Of a stretch of 64,000 bases of DNA, positions 4,065-56,496 are shown piece by piece; within the stretch, counting starts at the first letter, position 1, and each line of letters begins with the position of its first letter. A program made the position numbers and the translations under genes. The stretch comes from Gammaproteobacteria bacterium (GTDB taxonomy: Bacteria > Pseudomonadota > Gammaproteobacteria > Pseudomonadales > Azotimanducaceae). Where the stretch lies: contig SYFY01000192.1 of assembly GCA_005799745.1 (NCBI GenBank), forward strand, positions 1 through 64,000, written 5' to 3'. The notes under the pieces are model-generated. The model was not told the origin of the DNA and ran no database searches. It worked only from the letters and a program-made list of their open reading frames with translations.

Positions 4065-4370
4065 ATGTCCGCCCCACGCCCCGGTGACATCGTCTCCCGC
4101 CGTAAAGGTGTCGTGATGCACAAAGGTCTCGTTATGAGAGATGGATCAGTGCTGCACAACACCCCGTTTCGTGGTGAAACGCGTGTGTCGATGACTGAAT
4201 TCGCTGCCGGTAAAAGGGTCTACGTTGAACACCAGGAGACCGATGTGCGCACGGGCGCATTACGTCGTGCGGAATACCTCGACCCTCAGGGTTACGACCT
4301 GCTGCGCAACAACTGCGAACACACCGTATATCGTCTCACCCAGGGCAAGGCCGAGAGTCCCCAACTATAG
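4065..4370 (+). CDS. LRAT-like NC-domain protein, C-terminal tail cut off by in-frame TAG
   Basis: PGDIVSRRKGVVMHKGLVM...NNCEHTVYRLTQGK resembles LRAT/NlpC-type His and NCEH motifs. The same frame continues after the TAG to 4490 with a hydrophobic tail. ORF track starts at 3921; 4065 ATG chosen as start. Confidence 0.65.
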   Translation: MSAPRPGDIVSRRKGVVMHKGLVMRDGSVLHNTPFRGETRVSMTEFAAGKRVYVEHQETDVRTGALRRAEYLDPQGYDLLRNNCEHTVYRLTQGKAESPQL

Positions 4371-4464
4371 AGTTGGGTGGCAGCACTGGGTATTGCGGGT
4401 GCAGCGTTTGTATTGACTCGTCATCCTGGAATTGCCGCAGCGGGTTTTGCGCTCGGCAAAAAAC

Positions 4465-5130
4465 TCATGTCCAAGGCACGCGAGCGTTGAACGTGCCGAT
4501 GCCAGGAATAACCAATCGGTGACAGTGCAGTCGAAGCCGCGAATTCTTCTGATCGACCGCAGCGGGTTTGCCGTAGAGGTGATCACCGACGATGGCATGG
4601 CCTATCCACGCGAGATGGACACGCAGCTGATGGGTGCGGCCGGTGATGGGCGAAGCGAGAACGGTTGATCGTTCACCCTCACGCGTTAACAAACGCACCC
4701 GCGTGACAGCTTCGACACCTCCACCACTTTCCTTCCTGAGCTGAAACAACTTTCTTTCACGGACGATATCCGCTCGTTCACCCGCCACCCGATAACGACT
4801 CTTGCGACCGGGTTTGAGTGGAAGATTGATGATCAACGTGCCGTCCTCTGGAAACGCATCGACAACTTGCGCGACATAAAACTTGGAAATGTCACGACCA
4901 CTGAAGGCTTTTGTCAGCGCAGTCTGTACGGACTGTGACTTTGCGAGAACCAAGACGCCGCTTGTACCTTTGTCGATGCGATGGGCCGGGAAGTACCGGC
5001 CACGCTCAACCAGGAGTTTCCACAGATTGAACTCGCTCGTCCGATCTTCGAGTACGGAGAGACCTGATGGCTTGTTGATCACCAGCAGTCGATCATCTTC
5101 AAAGAGAATCCAGCCTTCCTGAAACTCCAT
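4465..5130 (-). CDS. RluA-family pseudouridine synthase
   Basis: HRIDKGTSGVLVLAKS catalytic motif, SPITGRTHQLRVHLAWIGHAIVGDHLYG. Confidence 0.88.
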   Translation of the reverse strand: MEFQEGWILFEDDRLLVINKPSGLSVLEDRTSEFNLWKLLVERGRYFPAHRIDKGTSGVLVLAKSQSVQTALTKAFSGRDISKFYVAQVVDAFPEDGTLIINLPLKPGRKSRYRVAGERADIVRERKLFQLRKESGGGVEAVTRVRLLTREGERSTVLASPITGRTHQLRVHLAWIGHAIVGDHLYGKPAAVDQKNSRLRLHCHRLVIPGIGTFNARVPWT

Positions 5131-6281
5131 CAGGTGTTGATCAGTGCGGGAATGCAGTCAAGGTAGGCGGCGACGATGGAGACACATCGCTCAAGATCCA
5201 CGCTGGTAGCCAGTCGATCTTCAGGATGGTGGAACCAGCGATTGCCGCCAAGCATGGAAACATAGCATCCTCCCTGTTCGTGAATGTTCTTCGCTTCACC
5301 GAGGGGCATCTGACCGAAAGGTGTGGTCTGGTAGTCGGTGATGCCTTGTTTTTTCAATGCTTCGATCAGTGGCGCAAGCCGCTCAGCGGTGTCCGCTTGC
5401 AACAACAAACGGCTGCCTTTCGTGGCGAAGTTGGCGCCGAGATGCACCCAGAATTCGGCTTTGAGCGCGAGCTCCGGATATTCAGCGAGGAAGCGACGCA
5501 TGCCAAGATGGCCGAGTTCGTGACCGCTGTTGGCGGTGAAATGCATGGTTGCTTGAGGTGGGTTCTTTGCGAAGTATCGCATGAGGGCAAGCCAGACCAC
5601 AAGACCGCCACCGCGTTCAGCGGTGCACGTCCACCAGGCGCTCTTGGGTGTGTAGATCACGACTGCAGGTGATTTTGGGTCGGTACCCTGGATGATCAGA
5701 TCAACGTTAGTAGCCCTGGCTTGTTCCCAGCGACTCGAAATCAGGAGACTGACACTTTCCCTGTTTTTCGCGGCTGTCTCCAGGACAGACCGGGATTCAC
5801 TCGCTACCTGCAACACAGGCGGCCCGAAAGGCGTGCCATAGTGGTCGGCGTTATGCAGCGCGAGGCCAGGAACCACCGTCTCGGCAGCAGACAGTGCGAT
5901 CAGTGCAGCATGTGAGGTCGATTTGCGAACGGCATCCAGCATCGTGTTGGGCGGCACGGCGCCTTGTGGGGTAAAACGGACAAGTCCGATGGGCGCGTCG
6001 CTGCCGGATTCGCCGAGTTGACCTTCGATGCCGTGAGAATGCGTATCTTGCGCGTCGAACAGCGGTACACCTTTGATGACCGCACCACCTTTAAGTTCAA
6101 GTCGTGCCACGCTGATTTCACGTCGCGCAAAAGGAAACTCGCGAAGTTGCGCAGTGAGGCCTGCGGACTTACACGCTTCGATCAACCAACGGGATGTCTC
6201 CAGATCTCCGGGTGCCGCAGTGCGGTGATTCAGAATCGAATCAAAGGCGGTGAGGTCAGCAAGGATTTGTTTAGCGCTCAT
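5130..6281 (-). CDS. M28-family peptidase-like protein
   Basis: ERGGGLVVWLALMRYF...TANSGHELGHLGMRRFL, consistent with an M28-like fold; start taken at MSAKQ. Confidence 0.6.
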   Translation of the reverse strand: MSAKQILADLTAFDSILNHRTAAPGDLETSRWLIEACKSAGLTAQLREFPFARREISVARLELKGGAVIKGVPLFDAQDTHSHGIEGQLGESGSDAPIGLVRFTPQGAVPPNTMLDAVRKSTSHAALIALSAAETVVPGLALHNADHYGTPFGPPVLQVASESRSVLETAAKNRESVSLLISSRWEQARATNVDLIIQGTDPKSPAVVIYTPKSAWWTCTAERGGGLVVWLALMRYFAKNPPQATMHFTANSGHELGHLGMRRFLAEYPELALKAEFWVHLGANFATKGSRLLLQADTAERLAPLIEALKKQGITDYQTTPFGQMPLGEAKNIHEQGGCYVSMLGGNRWFHHPEDRLATSVDLERCVSIVAAYLDCIPALINT

Positions 6282-6337
6282 GTCATCGTCTCCGGAATGC
6301 GCGCACGCTAACATCTTCGGCTTAAGGAGACGATTGA

Positions 6338-7237
6338 ATGAACATCCGTGATCTCAAATACCTGGTGGCAGTCGCAGAGTGCAGACACTTCGGCCACGCC
6401 GCTGAACTGTGCCACGTCAGTCAGCCGACCCTGTCGACGCAGCTGAAGAAACTCGAAGAAACGCTGGATGTAGTGTTGATCGAACGCACCAACCGGCAGG
6501 TGGTGTTGTCTTCAGTCGGTGAGAAAATCGTTGCGCAGGCCAAGAGGGTGTTGCGTGAAGTGGATGAACTGAATCGCATCGCGCAGCAACACCGCGATCC
6601 GTTTGGTGGTGACCTCCGACTAGGTGTCATTCCTACCGTTGCGCCGTATCTCTTGCCACGGATACTCGGTCCGATTCGCAAACACTTTCCGAAACTGCGC
6701 ATTCAGCTCAACGAAGGGCAGACGACGGACATCTCAGCACGTTTGCGGGCGGGCGAACTGGACGCGGTGATCCTCGCGCTGCCGATTTTTGATGATCGGG
6801 CTGAGGTCCGACCGCTTTACCGCGAGGCGTTTTATTTCACGACCTCGACTCAGCATGAACTCGCCAATCGCAAACAGGTCAACGAACGGGACATCGCGAG
6901 TGAGCAGATGTTGTTGCTGGAAGATGGCCACTGTCTGCGCGACCAGGCGTTGGCCGTGTGTGAAGGCGCGGGTGCCGTTGAGAATACGAACTTTCGGGCG
7001 ACGAGTCTTGAGACGCTTCGGCAGATGGTACGCGCCAATGTTGGTACAACGCTGATGCCGGAACTGGCGATCACCAAAATCCAGGGTGTGCGCTACATCC
7101 CGTTCAACAAACCCACACGTGCCGATGCACCGCATCGCGAAATCGGCCTGTGCTGGCGTCGCGCTTCCAGTCGAGGCGACTTGCTGGAGGCGATGACTGT
7201 GTTATTGAAGAGCGCTGTCGGCGAGGTCTTGCACTAG
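6338..7237 (+). CDS. oxyR: Hydrogen peroxide-sensing LysR regulator OxyR
   Basis: LysR HTH plus LLLEDGHCLRDQALAVC, which has the two redox cysteines with the OxyR spacing; stop TAG. Confidence 0.93.
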   Translation: MNIRDLKYLVAVAECRHFGHAAELCHVSQPTLSTQLKKLEETLDVVLIERTNRQVVLSSVGEKIVAQAKRVLREVDELNRIAQQHRDPFGGDLRLGVIPTVAPYLLPRILGPIRKHFPKLRIQLNEGQTTDISARLRAGELDAVILALPIFDDRAEVRPLYREAFYFTTSTQHELANRKQVNERDIASEQMLLLEDGHCLRDQALAVCEGAGAVENTNFRATSLETLRQMVRANVGTTLMPELAITKIQGVRYIPFNKPTRADAPHREIGLCWRRASSRGDLLEAMTVLLKSAVGEVLH

Positions 7238-7798
7238 GCAGTCGCGAATCGGTTGGGGTACTTCGATCTGGTACGGCAGCTTCGGATGATCGATCCCCAT
7301 GTGCAGCGCCGCGCCACGCTTGAGTGCACTGATAGAGGTTGCGTCCAGTTCGAAGCGAAGGAAGTGCACGGCAGCGGCCTTACCATCAGTGGTGCGGTCG
7401 AGGTCTTCATTGGCGATGGTCCAGATGCGTGAACCACCGTCGACCTGAATCCACACTTTGTGTTCAACACCTCCCAGACTCATCAAGGCGACCCGCCGCT
7501 CTTCCGCGTCGGGGTATTCGATCATGAACGTCGCTTTCCAGTTGGCTCCGTCGGGAATCAACGGGTTGTACGCTTCAAGTTCTTCTTCAATCGCGGCGCG
7601 CTCGAAGATGCGTTCTACACGCAACATTTCCTGCACCTGGTATTTGATGGTGAGGCGATCTTCGAAGTAGAGGGTCGCGTGCGGGCCGAGTGCGACTTGC
7701 CGGAGCTTCTTGTGTGCAATGACCTTGGCACGAAAGGTTGCGCGCGCCTCCGCGTAGTCTTCAAGGTTCCAGAGATCGTTGCGGGTCAGTCTTTTCAT
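7202..7798 (-). CDS. DUF3501 family protein
   Basis: MKRLTRNDLWNLEDYAEARATFRAKVIAHKKLRQVALGPHATLYFEDRLTIKYQVQEMLRVERIFE; located in a rubrerythrin / Fe-S operon. Confidence 0.85.
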   Translation of the reverse strand: MKRLTRNDLWNLEDYAEARATFRAKVIAHKKLRQVALGPHATLYFEDRLTIKYQVQEMLRVERIFERAAIEEELEAYNPLIPDGANWKATFMIEYPDAEERRVALMSLGGVEHKVWIQVDGGSRIWTIANEDLDRTTDGKAAAVHFLRFELDATSISALKRGAALHMGIDHPKLPYQIEVPQPIRDCLVQDLADSALQ

Positions 7799-9147
7799 TA
7801 TTCGATCCCATAGGCGCGTTTGATCATCGACAACGGATGTTCGGCGTGATGATCACCCTGCGCATCGGGTTGATCGAGACCGTGGGCGATGAGGCGTCCG
7901 GCCATCGGGCAATCAGAGCCGAAGGTCTCGGCCTTGGTTTCTTTCACTTTTCTGACAACAGGACGCACGATCTTCATCGCCTTGTCGTAGGTCTCCGACT
8001 TCACGGCATAGGTGCCGTCGTGACCTGAGCAACGTTCGATGGCCGTCACTTCGGTTCCTGGAACGATCTCGAGGAACTCCTTCGTCTTCATGCCAATGTT
8101 CTGCACACGCTGATGACAGGCCACGTGGTAGGCGACTTTGCCGAGGGTGTTCTTGAAATCGGTGCGAATGAGCCCAGCCTTGTGCCTGGACATCAAGTAC
8201 TCAAACGGGTCGAAGAACTTTGATTTCACCCGCGCGATGTCGGCATCATTCTGAAACATCAACGGCAACTCCTGCTTGTACATCAGCACACACGAAGGCA
8301 CCGGTGCGATGAGGTCATAACCGTCTTTAATGGCATCAAGAAACAGCGGCAGGTTCGCATCCTTGAGCGATTCCACTTTTTTGAGGTCGCCGAGTTCAAG
8401 CTTCGGCATGCCACAACATTTCGCATCCTTCAGCAGCTTCACCTGAATGCCGTTGTGAACGAGGACCTTGATCAGGTCTTCGACGACTTGCGGTTCGTTG
8501 TGATCGCCATAACAGGTGATGTAGATCGCGACCTTGCCGGTGGTGCGGCTGCAGGGTTTGACGATCTGATCGTCACCAAAGCTGTCGGGCTGAAAGCGGC
8601 TAATCGTTTTAGCGGTGAAATTCGGCAGTGGTGCGGCCGGATGAATGCCGACCATCTTGTCGCCCCATTCTCGCAACGTGGCATTGCCTGCGGCGAGGTT
8701 AGCCAGACGGTTAATGCCAGGGATGGAGACGGCATCAAAAATTGGATCTGTGCTGGTGATGATCCGGTCGCGCCACTTCGTATCGCCGTCACGAAATTTC
8801 TGCGCCTTGGCGCGAAGCATCAGGTGCGGGAAGTCCACCGCCCATTCGTGGGGGGGCAGGTAAGGGCATTTGGTTTCCGCGCACAGATCACACAAGAAAC
8901 ACTGATCGACCACTTTCATGTAGTCGGCCTTGTTCACGCCGTCGACTTCCATCGTCGGTGATTCATCAACGAGGTCGAAGAGTGTGGGAAAACTGTCGCA
9001 GAGGTTCACGCAGCGGCGGCAGCCGTGACAGATATCAAAGACACGCTCGAGTTCATGGTTGAGTTTGTCTTTATCCCAGAACTCCGGTTTGTCCTGGCCG
9101 AGGGGATGTCGGTCCGGTGCGCTCAGGTTGCCTTCGCGAGTGGCCAT
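7798..9147 (-). CDS. GlpC/HdrD-like Fe-S oxidoreductase with CCG domains
   Basis: CHGCRRCVNLCDSFP and CFLCDLCAETKCPY ferredoxin clusters; CCGMPKLELGD and HVACHQRVQNIGMKT cysteine-rich motifs. Confidence 0.88.
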   Translation of the reverse strand: MATREGNLSAPDRHPLGQDKPEFWDKDKLNHELERVFDICHGCRRCVNLCDSFPTLFDLVDESPTMEVDGVNKADYMKVVDQCFLCDLCAETKCPYLPPHEWAVDFPHLMLRAKAQKFRDGDTKWRDRIITSTDPIFDAVSIPGINRLANLAAGNATLREWGDKMVGIHPAAPLPNFTAKTISRFQPDSFGDDQIVKPCSRTTGKVAIYITCYGDHNEPQVVEDLIKVLVHNGIQVKLLKDAKCCGMPKLELGDLKKVESLKDANLPLFLDAIKDGYDLIAPVPSCVLMYKQELPLMFQNDADIARVKSKFFDPFEYLMSRHKAGLIRTDFKNTLGKVAYHVACHQRVQNIGMKTKEFLEIVPGTEVTAIERCSGHDGTYAVKSETYDKAMKIVRPVVRKVKETKAETFGSDCPMAGRLIAHGLDQPDAQGDHHAEHPLSMIKRAYGIE

Positions 9148-9213
9148 CGCGGAATCCTCATTGCTGCTGATGTCATGGTTAAGAGTGCGTGGTCTGGAAT
9201 CAGGTGACCATCT

Positions 9214-9244
9214 GAAAAAAGGGGCCGCAAGCGGCCCCTTTTCC
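9214..9244 (-). terminator. Intrinsic terminator or attenuator between rubrerythrin and the Fe-S gene
   Basis: AAAAAAGGGGCCGC-AA-GCGGCCCCTTTT: 8-bp perfect GC stem with a 6-nt U tract on the minus-strand transcript. Confidence 0.8.
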
Positions 9245-9260
9245 TGCCTCAGCTGAATGA

Positions 9261-9677
9261 TCAGGCGAGTGCGTCGAGTGCCTTCTGGAAGCGGTTGGCG
9301 TGGGAACGCTCAGCCTTGGCCAGAGTCTCGAACCAGTCGGCGATTTCGTCAAAACCTTCAGTACGTGCGGTCTTGGCCATACCCGGGTACATGTCGGTGT
9401 ACTCATGGGTCTCGCCTGCAATCGCGGCCTTCAGGTTATTGCGGGTGCTGCCGATGGGCAGGCCCGTTGCCGGGTCGCCGACACCTTCCATGTATTCGAG
9501 GTGACCATGCGCGTGTCCCGTTTCGCCTTCAGCGGTGGAACGGAATACGGCGGCCACATCGTTTTCGCCTTCGACGTCAGCCTTGGCAGCGAAGTACAGG
9601 TAACGGCGGTTAGCCTGGGATTCGCCGGCGAAGGCATCCTTCAGATGCTGCAAAGTTTTGCTGGACTTCAGGTCCAT
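9261..9677 (-). CDS. Rubrerythrin (no rubredoxin domain)
   Basis: [36 protein letters not shown]: diiron ferritin-like motifs. Confidence 0.92.
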
Positions 9678-9879
9678 GGGAGGTCCTCCTCTAAATCGTT
9701 AACGGGTGCATGCATGCGGGGGGGAGTATACGGCTGATCGACACATCAGCCATTCGAAAGGTTCGATTATTCCCATAGACGGTTTCTATGAGAGACGGCT
9801 TCTATGGAGGGTAGGTCGGGCCATACACTGGCTGAGGCCAAGAACCCTGGTCCAACTTCACCCAACTCGGATACTTGCC

Positions 9880-11244
9880 GTGCGTTCAGAACTCGGCGTC
9901 CTGCTCAGGCTGGCCGCACCCCTTATCCTCGCCCAGCTTTCGCAGATGTTTATGGGCGTTGCAGATGTCGTCATGGTCAGTCGCGTCAGTGCAACAGACG
10001 TGGCAGGTGTGACGCTCGGTGGCAATCTCTACTTCCCCACCCAGTTCCTGGTAGCCGGCGTCATCATGGCAGTGACACCGACCATCGCGCAGCTCCATGG
10101 TGCAGGTCGAATCGGCGAAATGGGTGAGGTGGTTCGCCAGGCTTTTTTTATCGCCATTCCCGCAGGTGTTCTGCTCGTCATCCTCTTCAACAACGTTGAA
10201 CCCCTTTATCACTGGATCGGCGTCGATGCGCGCGCGATTCCGGTTTCAGTGGGTTATCTGCATGCACTCTCCTTTGGCGTGATGCCACTCCTGTGTTTCT
10301 TTGCCATGCGGTATCTCTGCGAGGGCAACTCGTGGACGAAACCGGCGATGGTGTTATCACTCCTGTCGCTACCGACGAAGGTGCTGCTCAACTACGGTTT
10401 CATCTATGGCAACTTTGGCTTGCCGGAACTGGGTGGTGTTGGTTGTGGGTATTCCTCCGCGACCATCGCCTGGGGTCAGTTCATCGCGATGGTTTTCATC
10501 ATTCGTCACTCGCGCATGCAGAAAGCCGGGGTGTTTAATCGTTTCTCCCGTCCTGATTTCTCCGCCATTGGCCGGTTGATTCGTTTGGGGGTGCCCATCG
10601 GGCTGTCGAATTTTCTGGAAATGGCGGTCTTTTCCGCAGCGACGTTGTTGATTGGTCGCATCAGCGTTGAAGCCGTCGCTGCGCACCAGATCGCGATGAA
10701 CATTGGCGGACTCACCTTCATGATCCCTATGGGCATTGGAATGGCTGCGGCAATTCGGGTGGGCTTCAACACCGGAGCTGGTGATCTTGAAGCAGCACGG
10801 CGTAGTGGTTGGCTTGCTATTGGTGTGGCCACCGCCTTTGCTGTGGTTGCCGCCATTGCCGTATTGGTCGGTCGTCACTGGATCGTATCGCTCTATACAC
10901 CGGACGTTGCAGTGGCGACGATGGCGGCGACGCTGCTTATGTACGTTGCCTTGTTTCAGTTGTTTGATGACGCGCAGGTCACTGCGCTCGGCTCGCTGCG
11001 AGGCTACAAGGACACCACCAAGCCGATGTATATCGCGCTGTTTGCTTATTGGGGCGTGGGTTTTCCGGTCGCTGTGGTGCTCGGCTATGGCTACTTCGGT
11101 TTCGACGAATACGGTTTACCAGGGTTCTGGATGGGACTCACAGCGGGACTTGGTGTTGCAGCGGTCGGGCTCGTTTGGCGATTTTGGTGGTTATCCATCA
11201 ACCACGCGCGCATTCACGAGTTGACGCGACAGGCTCACGCGTAG
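9880..11244 (+). CDS. MATE-family efflux transporter
   Basis: Multi-TM protein, LILAQLSQMFMGVADVVMVSRVSATDVAGV, MIPMGIGMAAAIRVG; GTG start at 9880 more likely than 9706; stop TAG. Confidence 0.88.
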   Translation: MRSELGVLLRLAAPLILAQLSQMFMGVADVVMVSRVSATDVAGVTLGGNLYFPTQFLVAGVIMAVTPTIAQLHGAGRIGEMGEVVRQAFFIAIPAGVLLVILFNNVEPLYHWIGVDARAIPVSVGYLHALSFGVMPLLCFFAMRYLCEGNSWTKPAMVLSLLSLPTKVLLNYGFIYGNFGLPELGGVGCGYSSATIAWGQFIAMVFIIRHSRMQKAGVFNRFSRPDFSAIGRLIRLGVPIGLSNFLEMAVFSAATLLIGRISVEAVAAHQIAMNIGGLTFMIPMGIGMAAAIRVGFNTGAGDLEAARRSGWLAIGVATAFAVVAAIAVLVGRHWIVSLYTPDVAVATMAATLLMYVALFQLFDDAQVTALGSLRGYKDTTKPMYIALFAYWGVGFPVAVVLGYGYFGFDEYGLPGFWMGLTAGLGVAAVGLVWRFWWLSINHARIHELTRQAHA

Positions 11245-11254
11245 GTATCGCAGC

Positions 11255-12142
11255 GTGGAACTCTGGGCAGTCATTACCGTCGCTGCAGCGTTTCTGCAGA
11301 ACCTCCGCTCTTACTTACAACGCCGCCTTACCGGCAAGCTCTCGGTCAATGGCGCGAGTTTTGTCCGGTTTATTTATGCGTTGCCGTTTGCCGCCATCTA
11401 TATCGGGCTGATTGCAACGACGATCGAGTTACCCGAACCCGATTTCGAGTTCTTCTTCTATTGCCTGGTGGGTGGAGTGGCACAAATTCTTGCCACCATG
11501 GCCCTGGTGGCGTCACTAGTCGGCAGTAATTTCGCTGTCGGCACGGCGCTCTCCAAAACCGAAACCCTGCAAGCCGCGCTGTTTGGATTTTTGTTACTCG
11601 GCGAAACGTTGACGATGCCTATGTGGCTCGGGGTGGTGATCTCCTTTGTCGGTGTGTTGATGTTGTCCGGCCTGTTATCAGGAAAGGCGCCCCTCAAAAG
11701 TCTTGTCAGTGGTGATCGCGGGGTGATCCTGGGGTTACTCGCAGGAACTGGTTTTGCGATCTCGGCGGTGGCTTTTCGAGGCGCTTCCTTGTCGCTGCCG
11801 GAAGGCGAGCCCATGGTTCGGGCAGCAATGACGCTGGTAGTGAGTTTGGTCTTGCAGGTGAGCTCGATGGGCAGCTTCCTGCGTTTCACCGAACCTCACG
11901 AAATGGGTCGGGTCTGGCAACAGCGCAAGATCGGTGTGCTTGTCGGTCTTGCAGGAGCTTGTGCCTCGGCGGGTTGGTTCACCGCCATGACTCTCACCCA
12001 AGCGGCTCTTGTACGGGCGGTCGGTCAAGTGGAACTGCTGTTTACCTTTATCACCGCCGTCTGGATACTTCGGGAGAGGGTCACATCACAAGAAATCATC
12101 GGCGCGGTCTTGATCCTTTGCGGCATCCTGCTGCTCATCTGA
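11255..12142 (+). CDS. EamA/DMT-family membrane transporter
   Basis: Ten hydrophobic segments, two EamA repeats (e.g. ALSKTETLQAALFGFLLLGE; VELLFTFITAVWILRERVT). Confidence 0.82.
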   Translation: MELWAVITVAAAFLQNLRSYLQRRLTGKLSVNGASFVRFIYALPFAAIYIGLIATTIELPEPDFEFFFYCLVGGVAQILATMALVASLVGSNFAVGTALSKTETLQAALFGFLLLGETLTMPMWLGVVISFVGVLMLSGLLSGKAPLKSLVSGDRGVILGLLAGTGFAISAVAFRGASLSLPEGEPMVRAAMTLVVSLVLQVSSMGSFLRFTEPHEMGRVWQQRKIGVLVGLAGACASAGWFTAMTLTQAALVRAVGQVELLFTFITAVWILRERVTSQEIIGAVLILCGILLLI

Positions 12143-12168
12143 CGCGCCGGCTAAGCGGAGGCAACACG

Positions 12169-12972: not shown

Positions 12973-13128
12973 TCTCCCTGACAGATTGCAACCGTCGGCC
13001 ATTTGACGCCGGTTCCTGTGCAATCCGCCTGACCGTCGTCTCGTAACAGTGACGGCGGTCACGGGCCAAATCCGTGACCTTGCCTATGCTTTCCGGTGGA
13101 GCAGGTATCAGGCTTTCAGGAAGCGCGT

Positions 13129-22217: not shown

Positions 22218-23243
22218 ATGCCGACTCATTTTGATATCTCTGTAGACGAATCCGTTCAACTGCTGAAACGTGTGCTGCCGATCAGGAGCCAGCAGCGTGT
22301 TCCAACCATTCCGGAGAACTACGCCGTTTGGTTCGAATACATCAGCAACCGCGATGACCAGCTAAGCCAGGAAGTAGAAGAGCACATCAAGGGTGGGCTC
22401 ACGTTTTCTGCAGACGTGTGCCAGCGATTGTATGAAAAGTACTTCGTCGATGAAGTCGCAAGCGAAGTGGATGGCATCCAATGTGCGGTTCGCGAAGCCG
22501 TCAACTCGGTGCTGCAAGAGGTAGGTGCTCTCGGCTCAGACATGTCGGGATATTCGGATATTCTGGCGTCTGCGGGCCTCACCCTCAATGACAACCCGAC
22601 TCAGGATGACCTGAACAACCTGGTTGTACAGCTTGTGAGGGAAACGACGAAGACTCGCGGGCGAGCTAAAGAAGTGGAGTCGTCGCTGACGACGATGGCA
22701 GCTGAACTCACGGAAATGCGGTCGCAGATCAATACGCTGAACCGCGATTCACGAACCGATGCGTTGACCGGTGTCGCCAATCGACGTGCGTTCGACGAGG
22801 CCATGGTTCGGATGACCACGGAGTCCCAAGCAGAAGGCACCGATTTGTGTCTGGTGTTGATCGATATCGATCACTTCAAGAAGTTCAACGATACACATGG
22901 TCATCTGGTCGGCGACCAGGTGTTGCGATTTGTCGGCCAGGAAATGCAATAGTGCGTGAAAGGCCGCGATCTTTTGGCACGTTATGGTGGCGAAGATTTT
23001 GCGATTTTACTGCCTTCTACGCCCATCGATGGCGCATCAATATTGGCAGAGAGCATCCGCGCCATCATCGAGGCACAGCGGGTTCATTCCGAAAACTCGA
23101 CGGAGCCCCTCAAGGTTACGGTGTCGATGGGTGTCTCTCGCTATTGCGCCGGTGAAACCGCGTCAGACTTCATCGAACGTTCCGACACCACACTCTACGA
23201 ATCGAAGAAAGCCGGCCGCAATCGCGTGACACGCGAATCTTAA
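22218..23243 (+). pseudogene. GGDEF diguanylate cyclase interrupted by in-frame TAG at 22950-22952
   Basis: N-terminal part ends ...LVGDQVLRFVGQEMQ*; the same frame continues [22 protein letters not shown]...[17 protein letters not shown], so the GGEDF signature lies after the stop. Confidence 0.85.
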
Positions 23244-31773: not shown

Positions 31774-33363
31774 ATGACGAACATGTCGCAGAGAACAGCA
31801 GTGACGCTTGGCACTTCAGCTTTCGTGGAAAGTACTTCCGGCCGCTTGCTGCCAGACCTTGAGATTATCGCGCTGAATCGAATGGGTTTCGGGCGGAGTC
31901 TGCAGGACCTAGAGGCGTGGCGCAGCTTACCGGGAGATTCGGCAGAAAAACTCTCTGCCTGGATAGAGCGACAACTCCACTCGGATCGCATCGATGACAG
32001 CGAGTGCGAAAAACGACTGGAGGGCTTATCGACGATCAACAAACCGATCGAACGACTCTGGCAGGATCATTACCGAAAAGCACCTGAGGGTGACAAGAAA
32101 TACGAGGCCATCTATCAGCCCGTTGAAGAAGTTAAAGCAGCGACTCTGCTCCGTGCGGTTTACAGCAAACGGCAACTGCAGGAAGTGCTGGCGGATTTCT
32201 GGCACAACCACTTCAACGTTTCACCCCATCGTAGTGAAGAAATCGCCCCGGTTTTTCCGAGTTATGACCGTGAAGTGATCCACCGCCATCCGCTCGGCAA
32301 TTTCCGGGAGATGCTGGAAGCCGTGGCGCAACACCCGGCCATGCTGTTTTACCTCGATAACGCCCAAAACTCGCGCAATGGTCCGAATGAGAATTGGGCG
32401 CGTGAACTCTTTGAGCTGTACACGCTGGGTGCGCTGAACTACCTGGGCGTCATGCGTCAAAAAGATGTGCCTGGTTTCGCCGACGGTCGTCCTGTGGGTT
32501 ATGTCGATGACGACATTTATGAAGCGACCCGTGCGTTCACCGGTTGGCGTGTCAACGACAATGAAGACGAGTGGCAACCCGGGATGGAAGATACCGGCAG
32601 CTTTCGTTATTACGACCTCTGGCACGACCGCTTTCAGAAGTCAGTTCTCGGTAAACAACTTTCGCCGGATCAACCACCGATGAAAGACGGACGCGACGTA
32701 TTGGATGCGTTAGCTGCACACCCAGGAACGGGGCGTCACATTGCGCGCAAACTCGCGCTGCGGTTGATTGGAGACCATCCACCCGAATCACTCGTCGAAC
32801 AGGCAGCCAGCCTCTTCACGTCTCAGTATCAGGCCCCCGACCAGATCAGGCAGGTGGTGCGATTGCTGCTTCTCTCCAACGCCTTTGCCACCACCTGGGG
32901 TGACAAGCTCAAACGCCCCTTTGAAATCCTTGCAGGCACGTTGCGTGCCTTGTCAGCGGACATCAAGGCAGCGCAACCGACTGTCGGCAAGTTATGGCAG
33001 ATGGGTCAACCGCTGTTTGGTCGCGTACCACCGGATGGATATCCCGATCACAAGGAAGCCTGGAGCGGGACGAGTTCGATGCTGGAACGCTGGCGACACG
33101 TTGAAGGCTTCGCCTAGAACTGGTGGAAGGATGAGGTGTTTGCTGATTTGCCGGGTCAAACGCCCTTGTCAGTGAGTATGCCGAAACAGATCGTCGAGTT
33201 TTGGTCGCAGCGGATTTTGGGCTATTCGATGCCCGCAACTATCCAGGAGATCGTTATTGCTGAGATCTACGCGCACCATGCCTTCGTGGACGAGGACCGG
33301 GTGTGGGCGATTCCACTCGCCGTTTCTGCGATCTTGATGTCTCCAGAATTTCAGTGGCGATAG
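31774..33363 (+). pseudogene. DUF1800 family protein interrupted by in-frame TAG at 33115-33117
   Basis: ALNRMGFGRSLQDLEAWR, LADFWHNHFNVSP, NWARELFELYTLG, AFTGWRVNDN...LERWRHVEGFA*NWWKDEVFADLPGQ...IAEIYAHHAFVDEDRVWAIPLAVSAILMSPEFQWR in one frame. Confidence 0.85.
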
Positions 33364-38332: not shown

Positions 38333-38335
38333 CTA

Positions 38336-47453: not shown

Positions 47454-47840
47454 TCAGCAGACGATGTCTGCGCCGGAATTCAGCACATGACCTGCCGGGG
47501 TCTTGCTGATCGATCCGCGCAGCAGTACTTCCTTCCCATGACAGGCCTTGATGCGCTCGCGATCTGAATCCACGGGAAACGCCACTGGAAGCGCAAAGCG
47601 CTCGCCTCGTCGCGTGGCGTGATCTGCGTGGAAGAACAACGTGGCGCCAGGTCCTGCGGGATCAACCATCAGGTGTCCGTAGCTGGTGATTGACTTGTTC
47701 ACATAGAGGTTGCCAAACATGACAAGGTCGATCACGGAGACTCGACCGTCGGCGACAGGAACGTAGCCAGGTACACAGGCGGTGAGTAGAAGCAGTAGGG
47801 CGGCGGTGACGAATCCGCGAGGAGAAGTGGGGTAGTGCAT
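47454..47840 (-). CDS. Hypothetical lipoprotein
   Basis: Lipobox LLLTACVPGYVPVADG; secreted-type composition. Start uncertain. Confidence 0.55.
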   Translation of the reverse strand: MHYPTSPRGFVTAALLLLLTACVPGYVPVADGRVSVIDLVMFGNLYVNKSITSYGHLMVDPAGPGATLFFHADHATRRGERFALPVAFPVDSDRERIKACHGKEVLLRGSISKTPAGHVLNSGADIVC

Positions 47841-47933
47841 CGCTTTCAAGTCCATGTGTTTGGAGGCCCAGTCTTTGAGGGTCAGGCAAGCTTCGCATGT
47901 CGCGGAAGCATGAGTCACTGGGGCCTTGCAGGT

Positions 47934-48515
47934 TCAGCCGCGACGTTGATGCCAAGCCTCGTCCGTCAGCTCGAAGCGAATGTCCTCTCCTGGCCACAAC
48001 TCGCCTGTACCACTGACGAAAGTACCGGGGGACGACACTTCACTCGTGGTGTACCGGAACCGTTCGATCTCGACAAACCCCAGACGGCCCAGAAGTGCTC
48101 GTGATCCACGGTTGGCTTCGTAAGTGGTTGCTGCGATGAGGGTCACGCCCTCCGATTGAAACGCTGCACCAAGGATTGCCGAGCCCGCTTCCACGCCGAA
48201 ACCCTGTTTCCAAACGTGTTGTTTCAGTCGCAGGCCAAATGTGGGCGCAGCGCCTGGTATATCACCCGGAAAGATGCTGACCCAGCCGATGTCTTTGAGG
48301 TTGGAACGATCTTGTATCACCCAGACACCGAGATACGGCGGCCGCTCGGCAGCACGCAGCATCGTCGGCAGAACAGAATCGATCAGCGTCGCGCGGCTGA
48401 CAGGTAGACCGCCGTTCAACCAGCGCATCACCTCGGGGTCATTGTCGAGTGCAAACAACAACTCCACATCTTCAGCGCGCAGCGGCCGCAGGATCAGCCG
48501 CGGTGTTTCAATCAC
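47934..48515 (-). CDS. GNAT-family (RimJ/RimL-like) N-acetyltransferase
   Basis: ETPRLILRPLRAEDVELLFALDNDPEVMRWL; KQGFGVEAGSAILGAAFQ; NRGSRALLGRLGFVEIE. Confidence 0.9.
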   Translation of the reverse strand: MIETPRLILRPLRAEDVELLFALDNDPEVMRWLNGGLPVSRATLIDSVLPTMLRAAERPPYLGVWVIQDRSNLKDIGWVSIFPGDIPGAAPTFGLRLKQHVWKQGFGVEAGSAILGAAFQSEGVTLIAATTYEANRGSRALLGRLGFVEIERFRYTTSEVSSPGTFVSGTGELWPGEDIRFELTDEAWHQRRG

Positions 48516-49921
48516 ACCGCATCCTCGTGGGCTGTCACCTGCTCTTCTCGGACGAAGAACAACATGAAAAAGCCGATGGTCAACAGGATCAGGAGTGAGG
48601 AATAACCCGCACGCTGACTTTCAAACGCCCGCGTGAACACACCGACGAGAAATGGTGCGAGGAAGGCGGTTGCCGTTCCCGACAACGCATAGAGCCCGAA
48701 GAACTGGGTCATCATCGACGGCGGTGCAATCCTCGCCATCATCGTTCGTGACGCCGCGAAACCCACAGTGATGAACATGGCGAAAAACTGGTTGTTGATG
48801 AAAAACACGAGTTCCGGAAGGGTTGCGAAGAAAGGTGAGTCCCATACCGGCCCCGTGTTCACGAGGGGCATGAACAGAATGGAATCCGGCCGAATCGTCA
48901 CCGCAAATGCGAGTAAGGCTGCTGTACCACCAATCGCCAGTAACAAGGTTTTGCGTGAACCCAGCAGATCGTCCAACCAACCGCCGATCACGGCGCCAAT
49001 CGCCGCCGAGAATGACGAGATAATGCCGAAGATCAACATCGTCGTGGTGTCCCAACCAAACGTTCCTGCTGCGAAGACACCGCCGAAGATCAGAACACCG
49101 ACCATGCCGTCGTTGAAAAGCATGCGTGAGATTAGATACAGCGCGACGTTGCGATAGTGTTTGAGTCGGCGCAGCGTCGACACCACCGCACCCAGACCTT
49201 CGCGAACCGCAGAGCCAATGGAACCACTGGCATTTTTGCCATCGGGTGTGAACAACAAGAGCGGCAGTGTGAAGAGCAACATCCACATCGCCGAGAGTGG
49301 CGCGACGATGCGGTCATCCTCGGAGGCGCCTTGATCTATACCGAACAGCGGCTCACTTGGGATGAACGAGAAGTCGCTGTTGCCGGGCCAGGCGAAGGCA
49401 TAGAGCACCAGCACCATCAGCAAGAGCCCGGCAATGTTGCCGTAGGCGAGGGCATATCCGGAGATGGCACCGACCTTGGTGACCGGCGCAATGCTCGGCA
49501 ACATCGCGTTGTGAAAAACTGCCGAGTATTCGAAGGCGATGCTGACGATCACCATCAGCACCAGCGTCATGGTGACACCGATGCCTTCGCCACCGGGCAG
49601 TGACCACCACAAGAGATAAGCGGCTGGAACCATGATGCCAACGAAGGTGGCGATCCAGGGTTTGCGGCGTCCACGTCGATCGGCAATCGCACCGAGGAAA
49701 GGAGCCGTGATCGCGATAATGAAACCCGAAATTGTATTGGTGAACCCGAGCATGCTCTGACCCTCCACCGGGTTCGGAGCAACTGTGGTCGTGAAGTACG
49801 GAGCGAAGATGTAGATAGTCACCAGAATGACGTAGGGGTTGCGCGCCCATTCAAACAACGCCCAGCTGTGATAGCCCAATGGTCCCGCGGCACGATCGCC
49901 CGTGAGTGATAAGGCATGCAC
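48512..49921 (-). CDS. MFS transporter (UMF1-like)
   Basis: SWALFEWARNPYVILVTIYIFAPYF; APFLGAIADRRGRRKPW. Confidence 0.87.
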   Translation of the reverse strand: MHALSLTGDRAAGPLGYHSWALFEWARNPYVILVTIYIFAPYFTTTVAPNPVEGQSMLGFTNTISGFIIAITAPFLGAIADRRGRRKPWIATFVGIMVPAAYLLWWSLPGGEGIGVTMTLVLMVIVSIAFEYSAVFHNAMLPSIAPVTKVGAISGYALAYGNIAGLLLMVLVLYAFAWPGNSDFSFIPSEPLFGIDQGASEDDRIVAPLSAMWMLLFTLPLLLFTPDGKNASGSIGSAVREGLGAVVSTLRRLKHYRNVALYLISRMLFNDGMVGVLIFGGVFAAGTFGWDTTTMLIFGIISSFSAAIGAVIGGWLDDLLGSRKTLLLAIGGTAALLAFAVTIRPDSILFMPLVNTGPVWDSPFFATLPELVFFINNQFFAMFITVGFAASRTMMARIAPPSMMTQFFGLYALSGTATAFLAPFLVGVFTRAFESQRAGYSSLLILLTIGFFMLFFVREEQVTAHEDAV

Positions 49922-50054
49922 TGTGGAACCCGACCTTGATTGGTGAACAAGCCGGCGATTGTGGGGGCAAAGGGTATGAGGTTAATAGGGGTAGCATGCG
50001 TACAACGATGCGTTGCAGTGATACGCTCTTCCCCGTTCTGGTGGGAGGAACAAT

Positions 50055-51497
50055 ATGGTGAGTGAAACACCTGGCGGCAGTGTGGTGCTGGCCGGTGGTC
50101 GAAGTGCATCGGAGATTTTGTATGGTGCGCTGGACGACGCCGTTCGCACTTGTGCGACGCCATCCAAGTCGTTTTCGCTTCCCAATAAAGGACAAGTATT
50201 TAAGCGCGCCTATCCCGACATCCTTCCTGTATTCGAAGCTGCGCGACTTGGGAGTACTCAGCGTCTGGAAATGGCGCGACACATCGTCGATACGTTGCGA
50301 CGCGAGCTGGTGTGGCAATGGGGTAGCGAGGCGATGCCTGTCGCAGGCGTGCTGCGAGATGCCGCCGAACCCCTCGCACTTGAAGTGAAGGATTTTGGTG
50401 CAGGGCAGGGGTGGACGCCTGAGCTGACTGATCGAGGTACGATCTGGAAAGCTGACTCACTGGCACTTGTCGGTGAAGTACTTTGCGGCCGCCAAGTGAT
50501 TACAAGCGCCGCCGCAGAGGCGCTTGCATGGATCAGCAAGCACTTGTTGGAACAAGGCCGCGTTCACCTCGGTGGTCGGCGAATCGCGATGCTTGGTGCG
50601 GGTGCGGAGATGGCGCCGACACGCGCGTGGCTTCAGGCAGGAGCGGACGTATTGTGGCTTGATGCCGCACCACCACCTCAAGCGTGGTTTGATTCGGGTG
50701 ACTTGAAAGGGCGCTTGTACACTCCATCTCTTCCGGTGGATCTCCTGTCGCGTCCGCAGGAAGTACTCGCCACCTTGTTGGCCTTCAGCAACGGTGAGCC
50801 ACTCGATCTCGGACTCTACGCTTATGCACCTGGGAAAGCACGGGAGATCAGACTTACTGCGGTGATGAATGCTCTTGTTGAAGCCATGCCATGTGATCTT
50901 GTCCGGAGTGTCACGCTGCTCGTATCTCCGACCACGCCGACAGCAATCGGAGAAGATGACGTAGCTACGATGCAAACAAGACGACACACGCGGCCGGCTT
51001 GGGAGACGATTCTTTCTGGCCTTGGGCTCTTGTCCCGACAAAATGGCTGCGTGGAAACCTCGAGCGGTGCTGTAAGCCGGACGGTCATCGGCATTCAAGG
51101 TGCGAGTTATCAGGCGGCACAGTACGTTGGTAAAATACTGACGGCGGAATGTTGGTACCAGGACAGCATCGCTTCGGGAGAAAGTGGTCCTCGCATCTCT
51201 GCCAACACCGCAGCCATTACACGGACTCGCTCGTTGGAGCATCCTGTGTTTACCGCAGCCTTTGCAGGAGCGTCAGCATTCGGTGTGGAGACGCTAGAGC
51301 CTGAGCAATCGCGTTGTCTGAACGGGCTTCTCGCATTGCACGACTGGTTTCATCCGGAACCTCCGGTGCCAGGTCGAATCCGCGTGCATGGTGGAATTCA
51401 CACGTTGCCTTATCCGTTGGAGTCTGCGCTTCAGGTGGCCGCGGCGATTGGATTTGCGAGACGACCCAAGCTATTTCGTGGTCTTCTGAGTCGGTGA
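50055..51497 (+). CDS. Large protein of unknown family with Rossmann-like glycine motif
   Basis: Internal GGRRIAMLGAGAEMAPTRAWLQAGADVLWLDAAPP resembles a nucleotide-binding beta-alpha-beta; no other motif recognised. Confidence 0.6.
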   Translation: MVSETPGGSVVLAGGRSASEILYGALDDAVRTCATPSKSFSLPNKGQVFKRAYPDILPVFEAARLGSTQRLEMARHIVDTLRRELVWQWGSEAMPVAGVLRDAAEPLALEVKDFGAGQGWTPELTDRGTIWKADSLALVGEVLCGRQVITSAAAEALAWISKHLLEQGRVHLGGRRIAMLGAGAEMAPTRAWLQAGADVLWLDAAPPPQAWFDSGDLKGRLYTPSLPVDLLSRPQEVLATLLAFSNGEPLDLGLYAYAPGKAREIRLTAVMNALVEAMPCDLVRSVTLLVSPTTPTAIGEDDVATMQTRRHTRPAWETILSGLGLLSRQNGCVETSSGAVSRTVIGIQGASYQAAQYVGKILTAECWYQDSIASGESGPRISANTAAITRTRSLEHPVFTAAFAGASAFGVETLEPEQSRCLNGLLALHDWFHPEPPVPGRIRVHGGIHTLPYPLESALQVAAAIGFARRPKLFRGLLSR

Positions 51498-51539
51498 TAT
51501 CGTGCGGGTAAGGTTGGAATTGCAGTTACTTGAGGGGAA

Positions 51540-53867
51540 ATGACGGTGCAAGCGCTGCAAGGTGTTCGAGTACTGGATCTCACGATTGGACCTGTCGGTG
51601 GCATGGTCATGACTGTGTTCGCAGACTTCGGTGCTGAAGTTCTACGGCTCAAGCGTGGTGATCGTTTTGAGCAACTGCCCGCAGCACCGATGTGGCGGCG
51701 AGGCACTGCAGCGACTCAGCTCGATGTGCAACAAGACCGCACACGCTTCCACGCGCTCTGCGCGGCAGCAGATGTGTTGGTGATTAATTGGCGCCCTGCG
51801 ACACGTAGCGCTGCTGGTATAGACGTCCAGACACTTCGACAGAAGTTCCCGCACCTTGTGATCTGTTCGATTACGTCATTTGGTGCGGAAGATCCACGTT
51901 CGAACTTGCCGGGTTATGAACATGTGGTCGCTGCAGCCATTGGTCGTATGTTGTGTTTTACCGGTTGTCCAGATCGTGACGGCCCTGCATTTTCTGCACT
52001 GCAGGTCGGGGTGCATGCCTGCACACAGTCGGTGATCAGTGGTGTGCTGGCTGCGTTGGTAGCACGTTCGCAACAGGGCCAGGGTTCACTGGTCGAAACC
52101 AGCATGCTGCAGGGTTTTCTGGCTTTTGAACAAGGCGCAATGCTGGGTGAGCAGTTCCGTGCGCGCTTGGGTGATGTGGTTGATGGTGTTGCTGGCTCGG
52201 CGGCCCAGGCAGGCATACCCACGCTTCACTACCTGCCGACACAAGCTGGCGACGGTCGATGGGTGCAACTCGGCAATCTCCTACCACACCTGTTCGATAA
52301 TTTCCTCGTTGCCACGGAACTCGTCGATATCCTCGCGGACCCCGATTACGACACCACGCAGATGAATCTGCCGGAAGAAAAACGTGAGCGCTTCCGTGAC
52401 CTCATGTTCCGTCGCATGCAGGAGAAAAGTGCAGCCGAGTGGATGGACGTCTTCATCGACAACGGCAGTGTGGTAGCCGGGCTTGTGCAGACCACACAGG
52501 ATGCCCTTCGCGACGTTGACATGTTGGCCAACGGGCACGTCATTGATCTGGGCGGGAGTATTCAGCTGGGTCCTCTCGCTAAGTTGTCTGAGACGCCGGC
52601 ATCACCCCGTTTCGGAGTCGCGGATGGAGAGGCGCTTAGTCTTGAGTGGGCGAGCTCGCCACGTCCAACGACCCCATTTCGTGCGAACACCCACTTACCG
52701 CTTCAGGGAGTGCGGGTGGTTGAAATCGCAACGATCATCGCCGCGCCGTTTGGTGCTTCATTGCTAGCGGAACTTGGCGCCGATGTCATCAAGGTTGAAC
52801 CCATCGGTGGTGATCCTTATCGCGGGCTCGCTGCAGGCGTCGGTGCTTGTCGCGTCAATCTCGGTAAACGCAGCATTCGTGTAGATCTGAAAAGCCGCGA
52901 AGGGCAGTCGGTGGTGAGTGATCTGCTGCGCGATACAGATGTGTTGATCCATAACTTTCGGCCCGGTGTTCCCGAAAAACTCGGTATCGATTACGCGACC
53001 CTCAGCGCCATCAATCCACGGCTCGTGTATCTGCAGAGCAACGGTTATGGTCCTGAAGGTCCGGGTGCACATCGACCGAGTACCCATCCGATTCCGGGAG
53101 CAGGGATGGGTGGTGTGCATTTACAGATGGGCGGGGAATTGCCGTCGCAACTGCTTGATCTCGACCAGCTGCGGGTATGGTCACGCCGATTGATGCGCGC
53201 CAATGAAGTGAATCCCGATCCGAATACGGCGCTTGTGATCGCCTCGTCTGCCTTGCTGGGCTTGGCAGCACGTGAACGTACCGGACAGGGGCAAGTGGTG
53301 TTTGTGGACATGTTCGGTGCCAACGCCTGGGCGAATGCTGACGATTTCATTTCGTATCCCGGCAAAGTCGACCGTGCCTACCCCGACGAAGGCCAACACG
53401 GGCTTTCTTCGGTCTATCGGCTCTACCGTTGTGCGGGTGACAGCTGGGTCTTTCTGGCGCTGGGGACAGCAGCTGATCATTCCTGCGCAAGTGAGGTGTT
53501 TGAGGCTGCAGGTGTGGGTCGACCTGTTCTCAAACAATCGGGGGCACTTGAGGTCGCCTTCGCTCAACGATCAGCAGCAGAGTGGGAGTCCCGCTTTTTT
53601 GTCGCTGGTCTCGCCTGTGTACGTGCCGACAAGGCGATGCCCAAATTCTTCTGGCGATTACCCGAACAAGCGGCGTTCCGCACATCGAGCCAATACGCGG
53701 AGTGGGGTGGATTTGTGCGCCCGGGTTCACTGTGTCGGTTCGACCGGTTGCCACAGGCTGAGTTGAATCCACCGCTGGCCGGCGAACACTCGCGGACGCT
53801 TTTGGTTCTGATCGGACGGTCGGATGCTGAGATTGATTCACTCCTCGCTGCCGGTGTGGTCGCCTGA
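51540..53867 (+). CDS. Tandem-domain CaiB/BaiF (family III) CoA-transferase
   Basis: Two CaiB/BaiF N-terminal signatures: LQGVRVLDLTIGPVGGMVMTVFADFGAEVLRLKR and LQGVRVVEIATIIAAPFGASLLAELGADVIKVEPIGGDPYR. Confidence 0.88.
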   Translation: MTVQALQGVRVLDLTIGPVGGMVMTVFADFGAEVLRLKRGDRFEQLPAAPMWRRGTAATQLDVQQDRTRFHALCAAADVLVINWRPATRSAAGIDVQTLRQKFPHLVICSITSFGAEDPRSNLPGYEHVVAAAIGRMLCFTGCPDRDGPAFSALQVGVHACTQSVISGVLAALVARSQQGQGSLVETSMLQGFLAFEQGAMLGEQFRARLGDVVDGVAGSAAQAGIPTLHYLPTQAGDGRWVQLGNLLPHLFDNFLVATELVDILADPDYDTTQMNLPEEKRERFRDLMFRRMQEKSAAEWMDVFIDNGSVVAGLVQTTQDALRDVDMLANGHVIDLGGSIQLGPLAKLSETPASPRFGVADGEALSLEWASSPRPTTPFRANTHLPLQGVRVVEIATIIAAPFGASLLAELGADVIKVEPIGGDPYRGLAAGVGACRVNLGKRSIRVDLKSREGQSVVSDLLRDTDVLIHNFRPGVPEKLGIDYATLSAINPRLVYLQSNGYGPEGPGAHRPSTHPIPGAGMGGVHLQMGGELPSQLLDLDQLRVWSRRLMRANEVNPDPNTALVIASSALLGLAARERTGQGQVVFVDMFGANAWANADDFISYPGKVDRAYPDEGQHGLSSVYRLYRCAGDSWVFLALGTAADHSCASEVFEAAGVGRPVLKQSGALEVAFAQRSAAEWESRFFVAGLACVRADKAMPKFFWRLPEQAAFRTSSQYAEWGGFVRPGSLCRFDRLPQAELNPPLAGEHSRTLLVLIGRSDAEIDSLLAAGVVA

Positions 53868-53927
53868 GCGTGTAAAAGTGCTCAACGTGCTTCCAGCCGC
53901 TCACCCGTCGAGGTGTAGAATTGGGTC

Positions 53928-54863
53928 ATGAACGCCCAGACCGGCCCCCTACAGAAACCTCGCGATTTCCTCACCCCTCAGGAAATCCGTTCACTACGTG
54001 CGGTTAACCCACTGGCTTCCTGGTGGGCCATTGTGCACTGCTGGGGCGTGATCATCGGTACGTGGGTGGTCGTGACGGTATGGACGAATCCCCTCACGAT
54101 TCTGCTCGGCATCCTGATCATTGGCACGCGACAGTTAGGTCTCGGCGTTTTGAGTCACGACGCTGCGCATTTCACGCTGTTTGGCAACAAAGAGCTCAAC
54201 GATTGGACTGCAGAGTGGTTGATGAACCGGCCGCTGCTCGGCGCGTCGGTACTGAGTTATCGCAAATACCATCTCGGCCATCACAAGTTTACGCAACAAA
54301 CTAACGACCCTGACCTCTATCTTTCGAAACCGTTTCCGATTAACCGCGAGAGTCTGCAACGGAAGATCTTTCGCGACCTGACCGGGCAGACCGGCTTCAA
54401 ACAATACGGCGGTAGTTTCCGTGAAGCGTTTAAGGGCGATACGTTCTCAGAAGCTCTTTTTCGTGGCATGCAAAGGCTTGGCCCAAACATCGCCATTAAT
54501 CTGATATTCCTCACGTCGTTTGCACTGGCCGGTAAGTGGTATCTGTACTTTCTGCTCTGGTGGGCGCCAGCACTGACGTGGAACCGTTTCGTCACGCGCC
54601 TGCGCAACATCGCTGAACACGGAGCAGTGCCGGATAACGATGATCGATTGCGCAATACCCGCACTGTGGTGGCGAACTGGATTGAACGCGCGTTCATCGC
54701 GCCCTACCGGGTCAACTATCACCTTGAACACCATCTCCTTGTCAGCTGCCCGTTCTATCGATTACCCACGATGCACAAGCTGCTGATTGAACGTGGCTTC
54801 GGTGATCGCATGGAAGTCCGCTACGGATATCGGGACATGCTGCGGCAGGTGGTGCGTGCGTGA
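53928..54863 (+). CDS. Membrane fatty acid desaturase
   Basis: Histidine boxes HDAAH, HLGHH, HLEHH. Confidence 0.92.
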   Translation: MNAQTGPLQKPRDFLTPQEIRSLRAVNPLASWWAIVHCWGVIIGTWVVVTVWTNPLTILLGILIIGTRQLGLGVLSHDAAHFTLFGNKELNDWTAEWLMNRPLLGASVLSYRKYHLGHHKFTQQTNDPDLYLSKPFPINRESLQRKIFRDLTGQTGFKQYGGSFREAFKGDTFSEALFRGMQRLGPNIAINLIFLTSFALAGKWYLYFLLWWAPALTWNRFVTRLRNIAEHGAVPDNDDRLRNTRTVVANWIERAFIAPYRVNYHLEHHLLVSCPFYRLPTMHKLLIERGFGDRMEVRYGYRDMLRQVVRA

Positions 54864-54893
54864 GCCCGTTTGTAAATTTCCAGGAGCCATGAC

Positions 54894-55394
54894 ATGCCGC
54901 TGTTAACCGATATCGAACGTGACGCGTTCTTGAATGAGCGAGGTGTGCTTATGCGCATCGCGGTGGTGCGTCCAGATGGTCGTCCACTCGTCACACCCAT
55001 CTGGTTTCTCTACGAAGAAGGTGCCATCTGGTTTACCCCGCGTGGTAAATCGGAGTGGTTTGCCTGTCTAAGGCGTGATCCGCGCGTCGCGCTATGTATC
55101 GATGAACAACCACTGCCGTATCGCAAGGTGCTGGTCGAAGGGAAAGCGGAACTCACTCACGACGTCGGCAACGATGCCGTCTGGCGTGAACGGTACAGAC
55201 GCATCGCAAGGCGCTATGTGGATGATGCAGGTGCGGATGGCTACATCCAGAACACCATCAATCAGCCGCGTGGGCTTTTTTGTGTGAAACTCGCGAACGC
55301 CGATGTGAAGACGTGGCGCATGCCGCTGCCCGGTGAAGATGGCATGGGCATCTGGCACGATCGTTACTACACGCCAGGGACATCCTTCGGATGA
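54894..55394 (+). CDS. Pyridoxamine 5'-phosphate oxidase-fold protein
   Basis: RGVLMRIAVVRPDGRPLVTPIWFLYEEGAIWFTPRGKSEWFACLRRDPRVALCID. Confidence 0.82.
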   Translation: MPLLTDIERDAFLNERGVLMRIAVVRPDGRPLVTPIWFLYEEGAIWFTPRGKSEWFACLRRDPRVALCIDEQPLPYRKVLVEGKAELTHDVGNDAVWRERYRRIARRYVDDAGADGYIQNTINQPRGLFCVKLANADVKTWRMPLPGEDGMGIWHDRYYTPGTSFG

Positions 55395-55902
55395 GCACGC
55401 TCAGCTTGGTTCTGCTCGCCAAGGTGGTGGCATCAGCCCCGGATGGATTTGTCTCCGAACACGTACTCGACATCGAAGCGCCGCCGGCGCAGGTTTACAC
55501 AGCGCTGACAGAAGATGTGGGCTGTTGGTGGGATGCGGATCACTCCTATACTGGTGATGCGCACAACTTCTCCATGGATGCGCGTGCAGGAGGGTGTTTC
55601 TGCGAGGACTTCCCTAATGGCGGCAGCATCGAGCATTTGCGTGTGCTCTATGCTGATCCAGGCAAGTTCCTGCGGATGCAAGGTGGTCTAGGTCCACTGC
55701 AATCCATGCCCGTCAGCGGTGTTATGGATTTTGAATTCACCGCCACCGAAAAGGCACGCGACTCACTTATCGCTACAGCGTGCATGGACCTGTCAGTGCT
55801 GGATTGGAAGGGATGGCTGGGCCTGTGGATGCCGTTCAACTCGGTCAGTTGAAAAGACTGCAAGCCTATGTCGAAGGCGACGACTCCCAACGTGCGCGCT
55901 GA
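55391..55902 (+). pseudogene. SRPBCC/AHSA1-like protein with 1-nt frameshift near 55750
   Basis: Frame 1: DIEAPPAQVYTALTEDVGCWWDADHSYTGD...SGVMDFEFTATEK. The -1 frame then continues GTRLTYRYSVHGPVSAGLEGMAGPVDAVQLGQLKRLQAYVEGDDSQRAR to TGA at 55902. Confidence 0.75.
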
Positions 55903-56380
55903 GGCGCTGTTTCAAAAGCACCCGGGTTGGCGGCCGACGCTGACGGCGTTGTATCAGATTCTGCGAAACTCAGAACTTGAAGAAACGGTTCGCTGGGGTG
56001 TGCCGACGTGGACACATAAGGGCTCAATCGTTGTTTCGCTCGTTGCCTTCAAACCCTACGCAGGTCTTTGGTTTCATCAAGGCGCATTGTTGGATGATCC
56101 ACTCGGTGTTCTGGCGAAGCCGGAAGGCAGCAACATCAAGGCGCAGCGTCAGTGGCGGTTCAAAGCCGAAGATAAATTGAGCGCGCGGAAGGTGAATGAC
56201 TATCTGCGGGGCGCGATCCGTCTTGCAGAGCAAGGCATCAAAGTGGCGCCCGAGAAAGGCCGGCCAGTGGAAATTCCACCCGTCCTGGCTGCGCAGTTTC
56301 GCTTTGATGAAACCCTTAAGGCGTCTTTCGAAGCACTCTCGTTGTCCAAGCGTCGCGAGTATGCAGAGTACGTCGCTTAG
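55868..56380 (+). CDS. YdeI/DUF1801-like protein, C-terminus cut off by in-frame TAG
   Basis: LFQKHPGWRPTLTALYQILRNSELEETVRWGVPTWTHKGSIVV...SLSKRREYAEYVA*; frame continues AKQEETVMRRLEKIIPMIRSSVGLNDKYR to TGA at 56470. Confidence 0.82.
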   Translation: MSKATTPNVRAEALFQKHPGWRPTLTALYQILRNSELEETVRWGVPTWTHKGSIVVSLVAFKPYAGLWFHQGALLDDPLGVLAKPEGSNIKAQRQWRFKAEDKLSARKVNDYLRGAIRLAEQGIKVAPEKGRPVEIPPVLAAQFRFDETLKASFEALSLSKRREYAEYVA

Positions 56381-56496
56381 GCAAAGCAAGAAGAGACGGT
56401 GATGCGACGGCTGGAAAAGATTATTCCCATGATTCGCTCAAGCGTGGGGTTGAACGACAAGTACCGTTGATCCATGGTCGCACCGTCTAGTCGGAA

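Follow-up and report, generated by a model that had tools for sequence, protein, structure and literature searches.

Ordinary nonsense mutation as the probable source of four in-frame TAG codons in a MAG contig

The window analysed here, meaning the whole stretch of 64 kb, is the first part of contig C174 (83.7 kb). The contig belongs to a MAG of 3.87 Mb in 218 contigs, for which completeness is estimated at 85.9% and contamination at 4.9%. Four genes of the window each carry one TAG codon in frame:

4065..4490, + strand: LRAT-like gene, TAG at 4368-4370, terminal TGA at 4488-4490
22218..23243, + strand: GGDEF-domain gene, TAG at 22950-22952
31876..33363, + strand: DUF1800 gene (domain part), TAG at 33115-33117, own terminus TAG at 33361-33363
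55868..56470, + strand: YdeI/OmdA-DUF1801 gene, TAG at 56378-56380

All four codons are where an earlier note on this DNA had read them, and each frame stays open beyond the stop, for 39 codons in the LRAT-like gene, 96 in the GGDEF gene, 81 in the DUF1800 gene and 29 in the YdeI/OmdA gene. The same note had proposed that the encoded domain continues past the TAG. For three genes this was borne out by Pfam matches that run across the stop when an X is placed there: GGDEF (180-336, E 3.8e-46), DUF1800 (98-593, E 1.8e-110) and OmdA (134-190, E 2.4e-15). In the LRAT-like gene the Pfam match reaches only to residue 96, short of the TAG at residue 102. Eleven relatives, however, have stop-free ortholog matches, which mostly cover nearly all 141 residues, and the continuation past the TAG is therefore regarded as real.

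Further departures from the usual pattern concern two of these genes or their homologs in a sister species. The signature of the GGDEF protein, whose closest named homolog (62% identical) comes from a Pseudomonadales MAG, reads GGEDF instead of GG[DE]EF. In G001, a sister species of the same genus represented by a separate bin, the GGDEF ortholog (L176) has RCGGEEC where RYGGEEF is usual, which suggests that the active site may be dead there too. The YdeI homolog of G001 has an in-frame TGA. Taken together, the altered signatures of the two species (GGEDF and GGEEC) and the TGA in the sister's YdeI gene are in keeping with relaxed selection.

TAG works as a normal terminator in this genome. 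Of 819 long ORFs, 128 (16%) end with it, and back-up in-frame stops are no commoner after TAG than after the other terminators (0.29 vs 0.26-0.27). Normal termination at TAG had also been reported within the window, for at least nine genes with shorter ones included; this holds in kind, DUF1800's own terminus among the cases, with a count of 7 among the approximately 50 ordinary long-frame termini. The gene for RF1, prfA, is represented by a C-terminal fragment at a contig edge, with no stop inside it. Neither depletion of TAG as a terminator nor loss of RF1, either of which would mark reassignment, was seen. The insertion of pyrrolysine at TAG has in its favor that an in-frame TAG with the protein going on is the outward sign of a pyrrolysine site. 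However, no match to pylS was found at E <= 0.001 in this 86% complete assembly, by a search whose score passes the cut-off in one control genome; the interrupted genes are not methylamine methyltransferases; and wherever a site can be read in the sister species, its codon is one for Gln or Trp. Pyrrolysine is accordingly an extremely improbable explanation.

In-frame stops were surveyed over 1.85 Mb (48% of the genome). A codon model was trained on 849 long ORFs, and stops with coding-like sequence in the same frame on both sides were listed. From the resulting 109 candidates about 28 were dropped by eye, the next gene plainly beginning straight after the stop; most of the 109 were compared with Pfam profiles after X had been put in place of the stop. 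The strict count comprises stops spanned by a Pfam match, and TAA and TGA cases called by eye were kept apart from it. A Viterbi count of 93 in-frame stops (TAG 32, TAA 32, TGA 29) is not taken as evidence and was set aside because it is contaminated by neighbouring genes in the same frame.

By the strict count, TAG interrupts domains 20 times (17 outside the window), TGA seven times without a selenocysteine context, and TAA twice. Outside the window, TAG falls in genes for molybdopterin, HATPase, CoA-transferase III, two HDOD, M1 (below the curated cut-off), ring hydroxylase, abhydrolase, LemA, DUF1631, PilM, amidohydrolase, EAL, FAD-binding/KstD, OmpR HTH, MFS and M81 domains. TGA is spanned in molybdopterin, two beta-lactamase, MgtE, asparagine synthase, PNPOx and acyltransferase domains, and TAA in PGM and DUF3857. 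Called by eye were, among others, TAA in ABC-F, M1 peptidase, acyltransferase, YegP-like and RND adaptor genes, and TGA in pilQ. The special status that the earlier note had suggested for TAG is not supported by the rest of the genome, where TGA or TAA splits asparagine synthase, MgtE, molybdopterin, beta-lactamase, PNPOx, PGM and DUF3857 domains; frameshifts occur as well, and the residues at TAG sites include Gln, Trp and probably Tyr.

Four further TGAs lie at active sites of the Cys/Sec type, in two CMD proteins (C-x-x-U), a redoxin (U-G-C) and a glutathione peroxidase. These are probably selenocysteine codons, since a gene for tRNA-SeC is present, on the contig of the redoxin; the candidates and the tRNA gene are found at L108:6878, L108:9836-9928, L032:5273, L123:16044 and L145:17267.

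Random nonsense mutation at this codon usage would give 44-47% TAG, depending on the mutation model; TAG leads the nonsense codons because both CAG and TGG are used frequently in this genome. With that expectation, four TAGs out of four have a chance probability of about 0.04-0.06, before allowing for the choice of window. TAG is over-represented in the strict count (20/29, one-sided p 0.008-0.03) and, with the window removed, amounts to 17/26 (p 0.03-0.08). The excess is mild, weakens once the TAA and TGA cases called by eye are added, and should not be leaned on because the dropping of about 28 candidates was done by eye. The overall mix of stops is roughly what codon usage predicts for pseudogenisation by nonsense mutation, with TAG mildly high. 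The earlier note had held that an equal mix of stops, with no CUA-anticodon tRNA, would point to error or ordinary pseudogenes, and this is only roughly the picture obtained: TAG is the most frequent stop, as codon usage predicts, and no CUA-anticodon tRNA is among the approximately 17 tRNA genes found, a set that is incomplete.

The mild TAG excess is what one might expect if a natural amber suppressor tRNA read TAG part of the time, for instance as Gln, and TAG built up where it was tolerated. With only some 17 tRNA genes found, the lack of a CUA tRNA among them is not proof of absence, and such a gene could be missing. In one version of this idea, a Gln-inserting suppressor whose gene escaped assembly would partly rescue CAG>TAG mutations and leave TAG slightly above the codon-usage expectation; we regard this version as very improbable.

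The residues replaced at the TAG sites bear directly on this point. At the LRAT site, the window sequence CAA CTA TAG AGT TGG is matched in G001 by CAG TTA CAA AGC TGG; the TAG thus corresponds to Gln (CAA) in G001, and it corresponds to Arg (CGT) in G013. The GGDEF site is Gln in the three closest orthologs (CAA or CAG), with CAA in G001. Outside the window, G001 has CAG at the pilM site and TGG at the EAL site. All four sister codons that can be read, two of them for window genes, are therefore sense codons (CAA, CAA, CAG and TGG), and all four comparisons fit C:G>T:A transitions, two of them with a synonymous third-base difference. Homologs of solved structure have Trp at the EAL site, mostly Trp at the OmpR site, Trp at the M1 peptidase site, Tyr or Leu at the KstD site and Gln at the alkylsulfatase site; the LemA site is Met in the PDB match. 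PDB searches with the YdeI and ring hydroxylase proteins gave no match. DUF1800 and YdeI lack a close ortholog from which the ancestral codon could be read, the relatives of DUF1800 being too distant. Because the sister has both Gln and Trp at these sites, no single amino acid explains TAG. Gln at three of the four sister codons would suit a suppressor of the Gln type, but such a tRNA would insert the wrong residue at Trp and Tyr sites. Moreover, genes are also broken by TGA, TAA and frameshifts, TAG is a normal terminator (16%) without extra back-up stops, no CUA tRNA is among those found, and TAG occurs in wrecked pilus genes next to TAA and frameshifts. Part-time suppression of TAG is consequently a most unlikely account of these codons.

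The pilus genes in question are the following:

L110:9378-13680 and L144:947-4916: broken type IV pilus genes (pilM, pilO/P, pilQ, pilB, pilC)

Here pilM has a TAA, a TAG and a frameshift, and pilQ a TGA and a frameshift. The middle of pilO/pilP is deleted; only a PilP profile match (53-146) is left, and the PilO profile has no match. The pilC frame is shifted, and the frameshift in pilB is confirmed by profile, TIGR02538 being split into 1-330 and 333-563. The pilN and prepilin peptidase genes look whole. Frameshifts, read as switches of the coding frame between two frames, affect genes for an RND pump, DUF4197 and CoA-transferase, among others. In the RND efflux locus (L140:2976 and L140:5927), the pump is frameshifted and the adaptor has a TAA, as read by eye. 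At least four genes have more than one in-frame stop, where uniform placement would give 0.5 such genes (P ~0.001); two of the four depend partly on calls made by eye. Two such arrangements may be described. A molybdopterin oxidoreductase gene (L021:2612-3688) has a TAG (3032) and a TGA (3266), both within the domain, and an M1 peptidase-like gene (L078:15253-17100) has TGA, TAG and TAA in the same frame, of which only the TAG is not a call by eye.

The sister species has one TAG and one TAA of its own in pilM. Since G001 reads CAG at the TAG site of the window species, its TAG is at another position; pilM is broken independently in the two sister species. In the 17 other relatives the top-scoring pilM match is free of stops, although G011 has only weak matches, which fall below the family cut-off (best E 8.6e-8). 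These observations also bear on the possibility that the organism's genes are intact and the stops stem from consensus or assembly error in a fragmented bin. In favor of error are the 218 contigs, the 85.9% completeness and 4.9% contamination, and the position of certain domain-internal stops within 300 bases of a contig end (ABC-F, C65:158; PGM, C98:257). The four window sites, however, are all more than 4 kb from both ends of their 83.7 kb contig, and a deletion is present in pilO/pilP. Lineage-specific gene decay is favored over random base errors because the lesions cluster by gene and in one pathway and because the sister, a separate bin, has pilM stops of its own. Consensus error is thus unlikely as the general cause, though less so than any reading of TAG as sense, and single sites, those of the window included, may still be errors. 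Of the explanations that the earlier note had left standing side by side, decay is the one that the genome-wide survey supports.

The four TAGs very probably arose by ordinary nonsense mutation, in genes that are decaying or dispensable, and do not represent a new reading of the code, because they join a genome-wide scatter that includes all three types of stop, frameshifts and a deletion. Under this interpretation, C:G>T:A transitions (CAG>TAG, TGG>TAG) would have made most of the TAGs, the mutational direction being deduced from the sister codons. Where this can be tested, the mutations would postdate the divergence of the two sister species. RF1 would be expected to read the TAGs as stops and truncated products to result; each of the four window genes would then be dead, and its TAG no consensus error. 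The present case removes one recoding candidate, and illustrates how samples of a few genes can mislead: at this codon usage, random nonsense mutation yields TAG more often than either other stop. The parallel decay of pilus genes in this species and its sister offers a modest ecological clue, and pili have likely been lost.

These properties invite comparison with three known systems. Bacteria and archaea that encode pyrrolysine share the in-frame TAG inside genes; they differ from the present case, in which no pylS was found in the 86% complete assembly, the sites derive from Gln and Trp codons, and TGA and TAA interrupt genes as well. Amber-suppressor strains of the supE type carry a Gln tRNA-CUA, and Gln would indeed rescue CAG>TAG sites. 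In contrast, no CUA tRNA is in the incomplete set found here, and the Trp and Tyr sites and the frameshifts would not be rescued. There is also a likeness to decaying bacterial genomes, such as those of recent symbionts, in which one also sees all kinds of nonsense codon, frameshifts, deletion, several lesions per gene and the loss of a whole appendage pathway. The present genome differs in that it still measures about 3.9 Mb, with about 85% of it coding.
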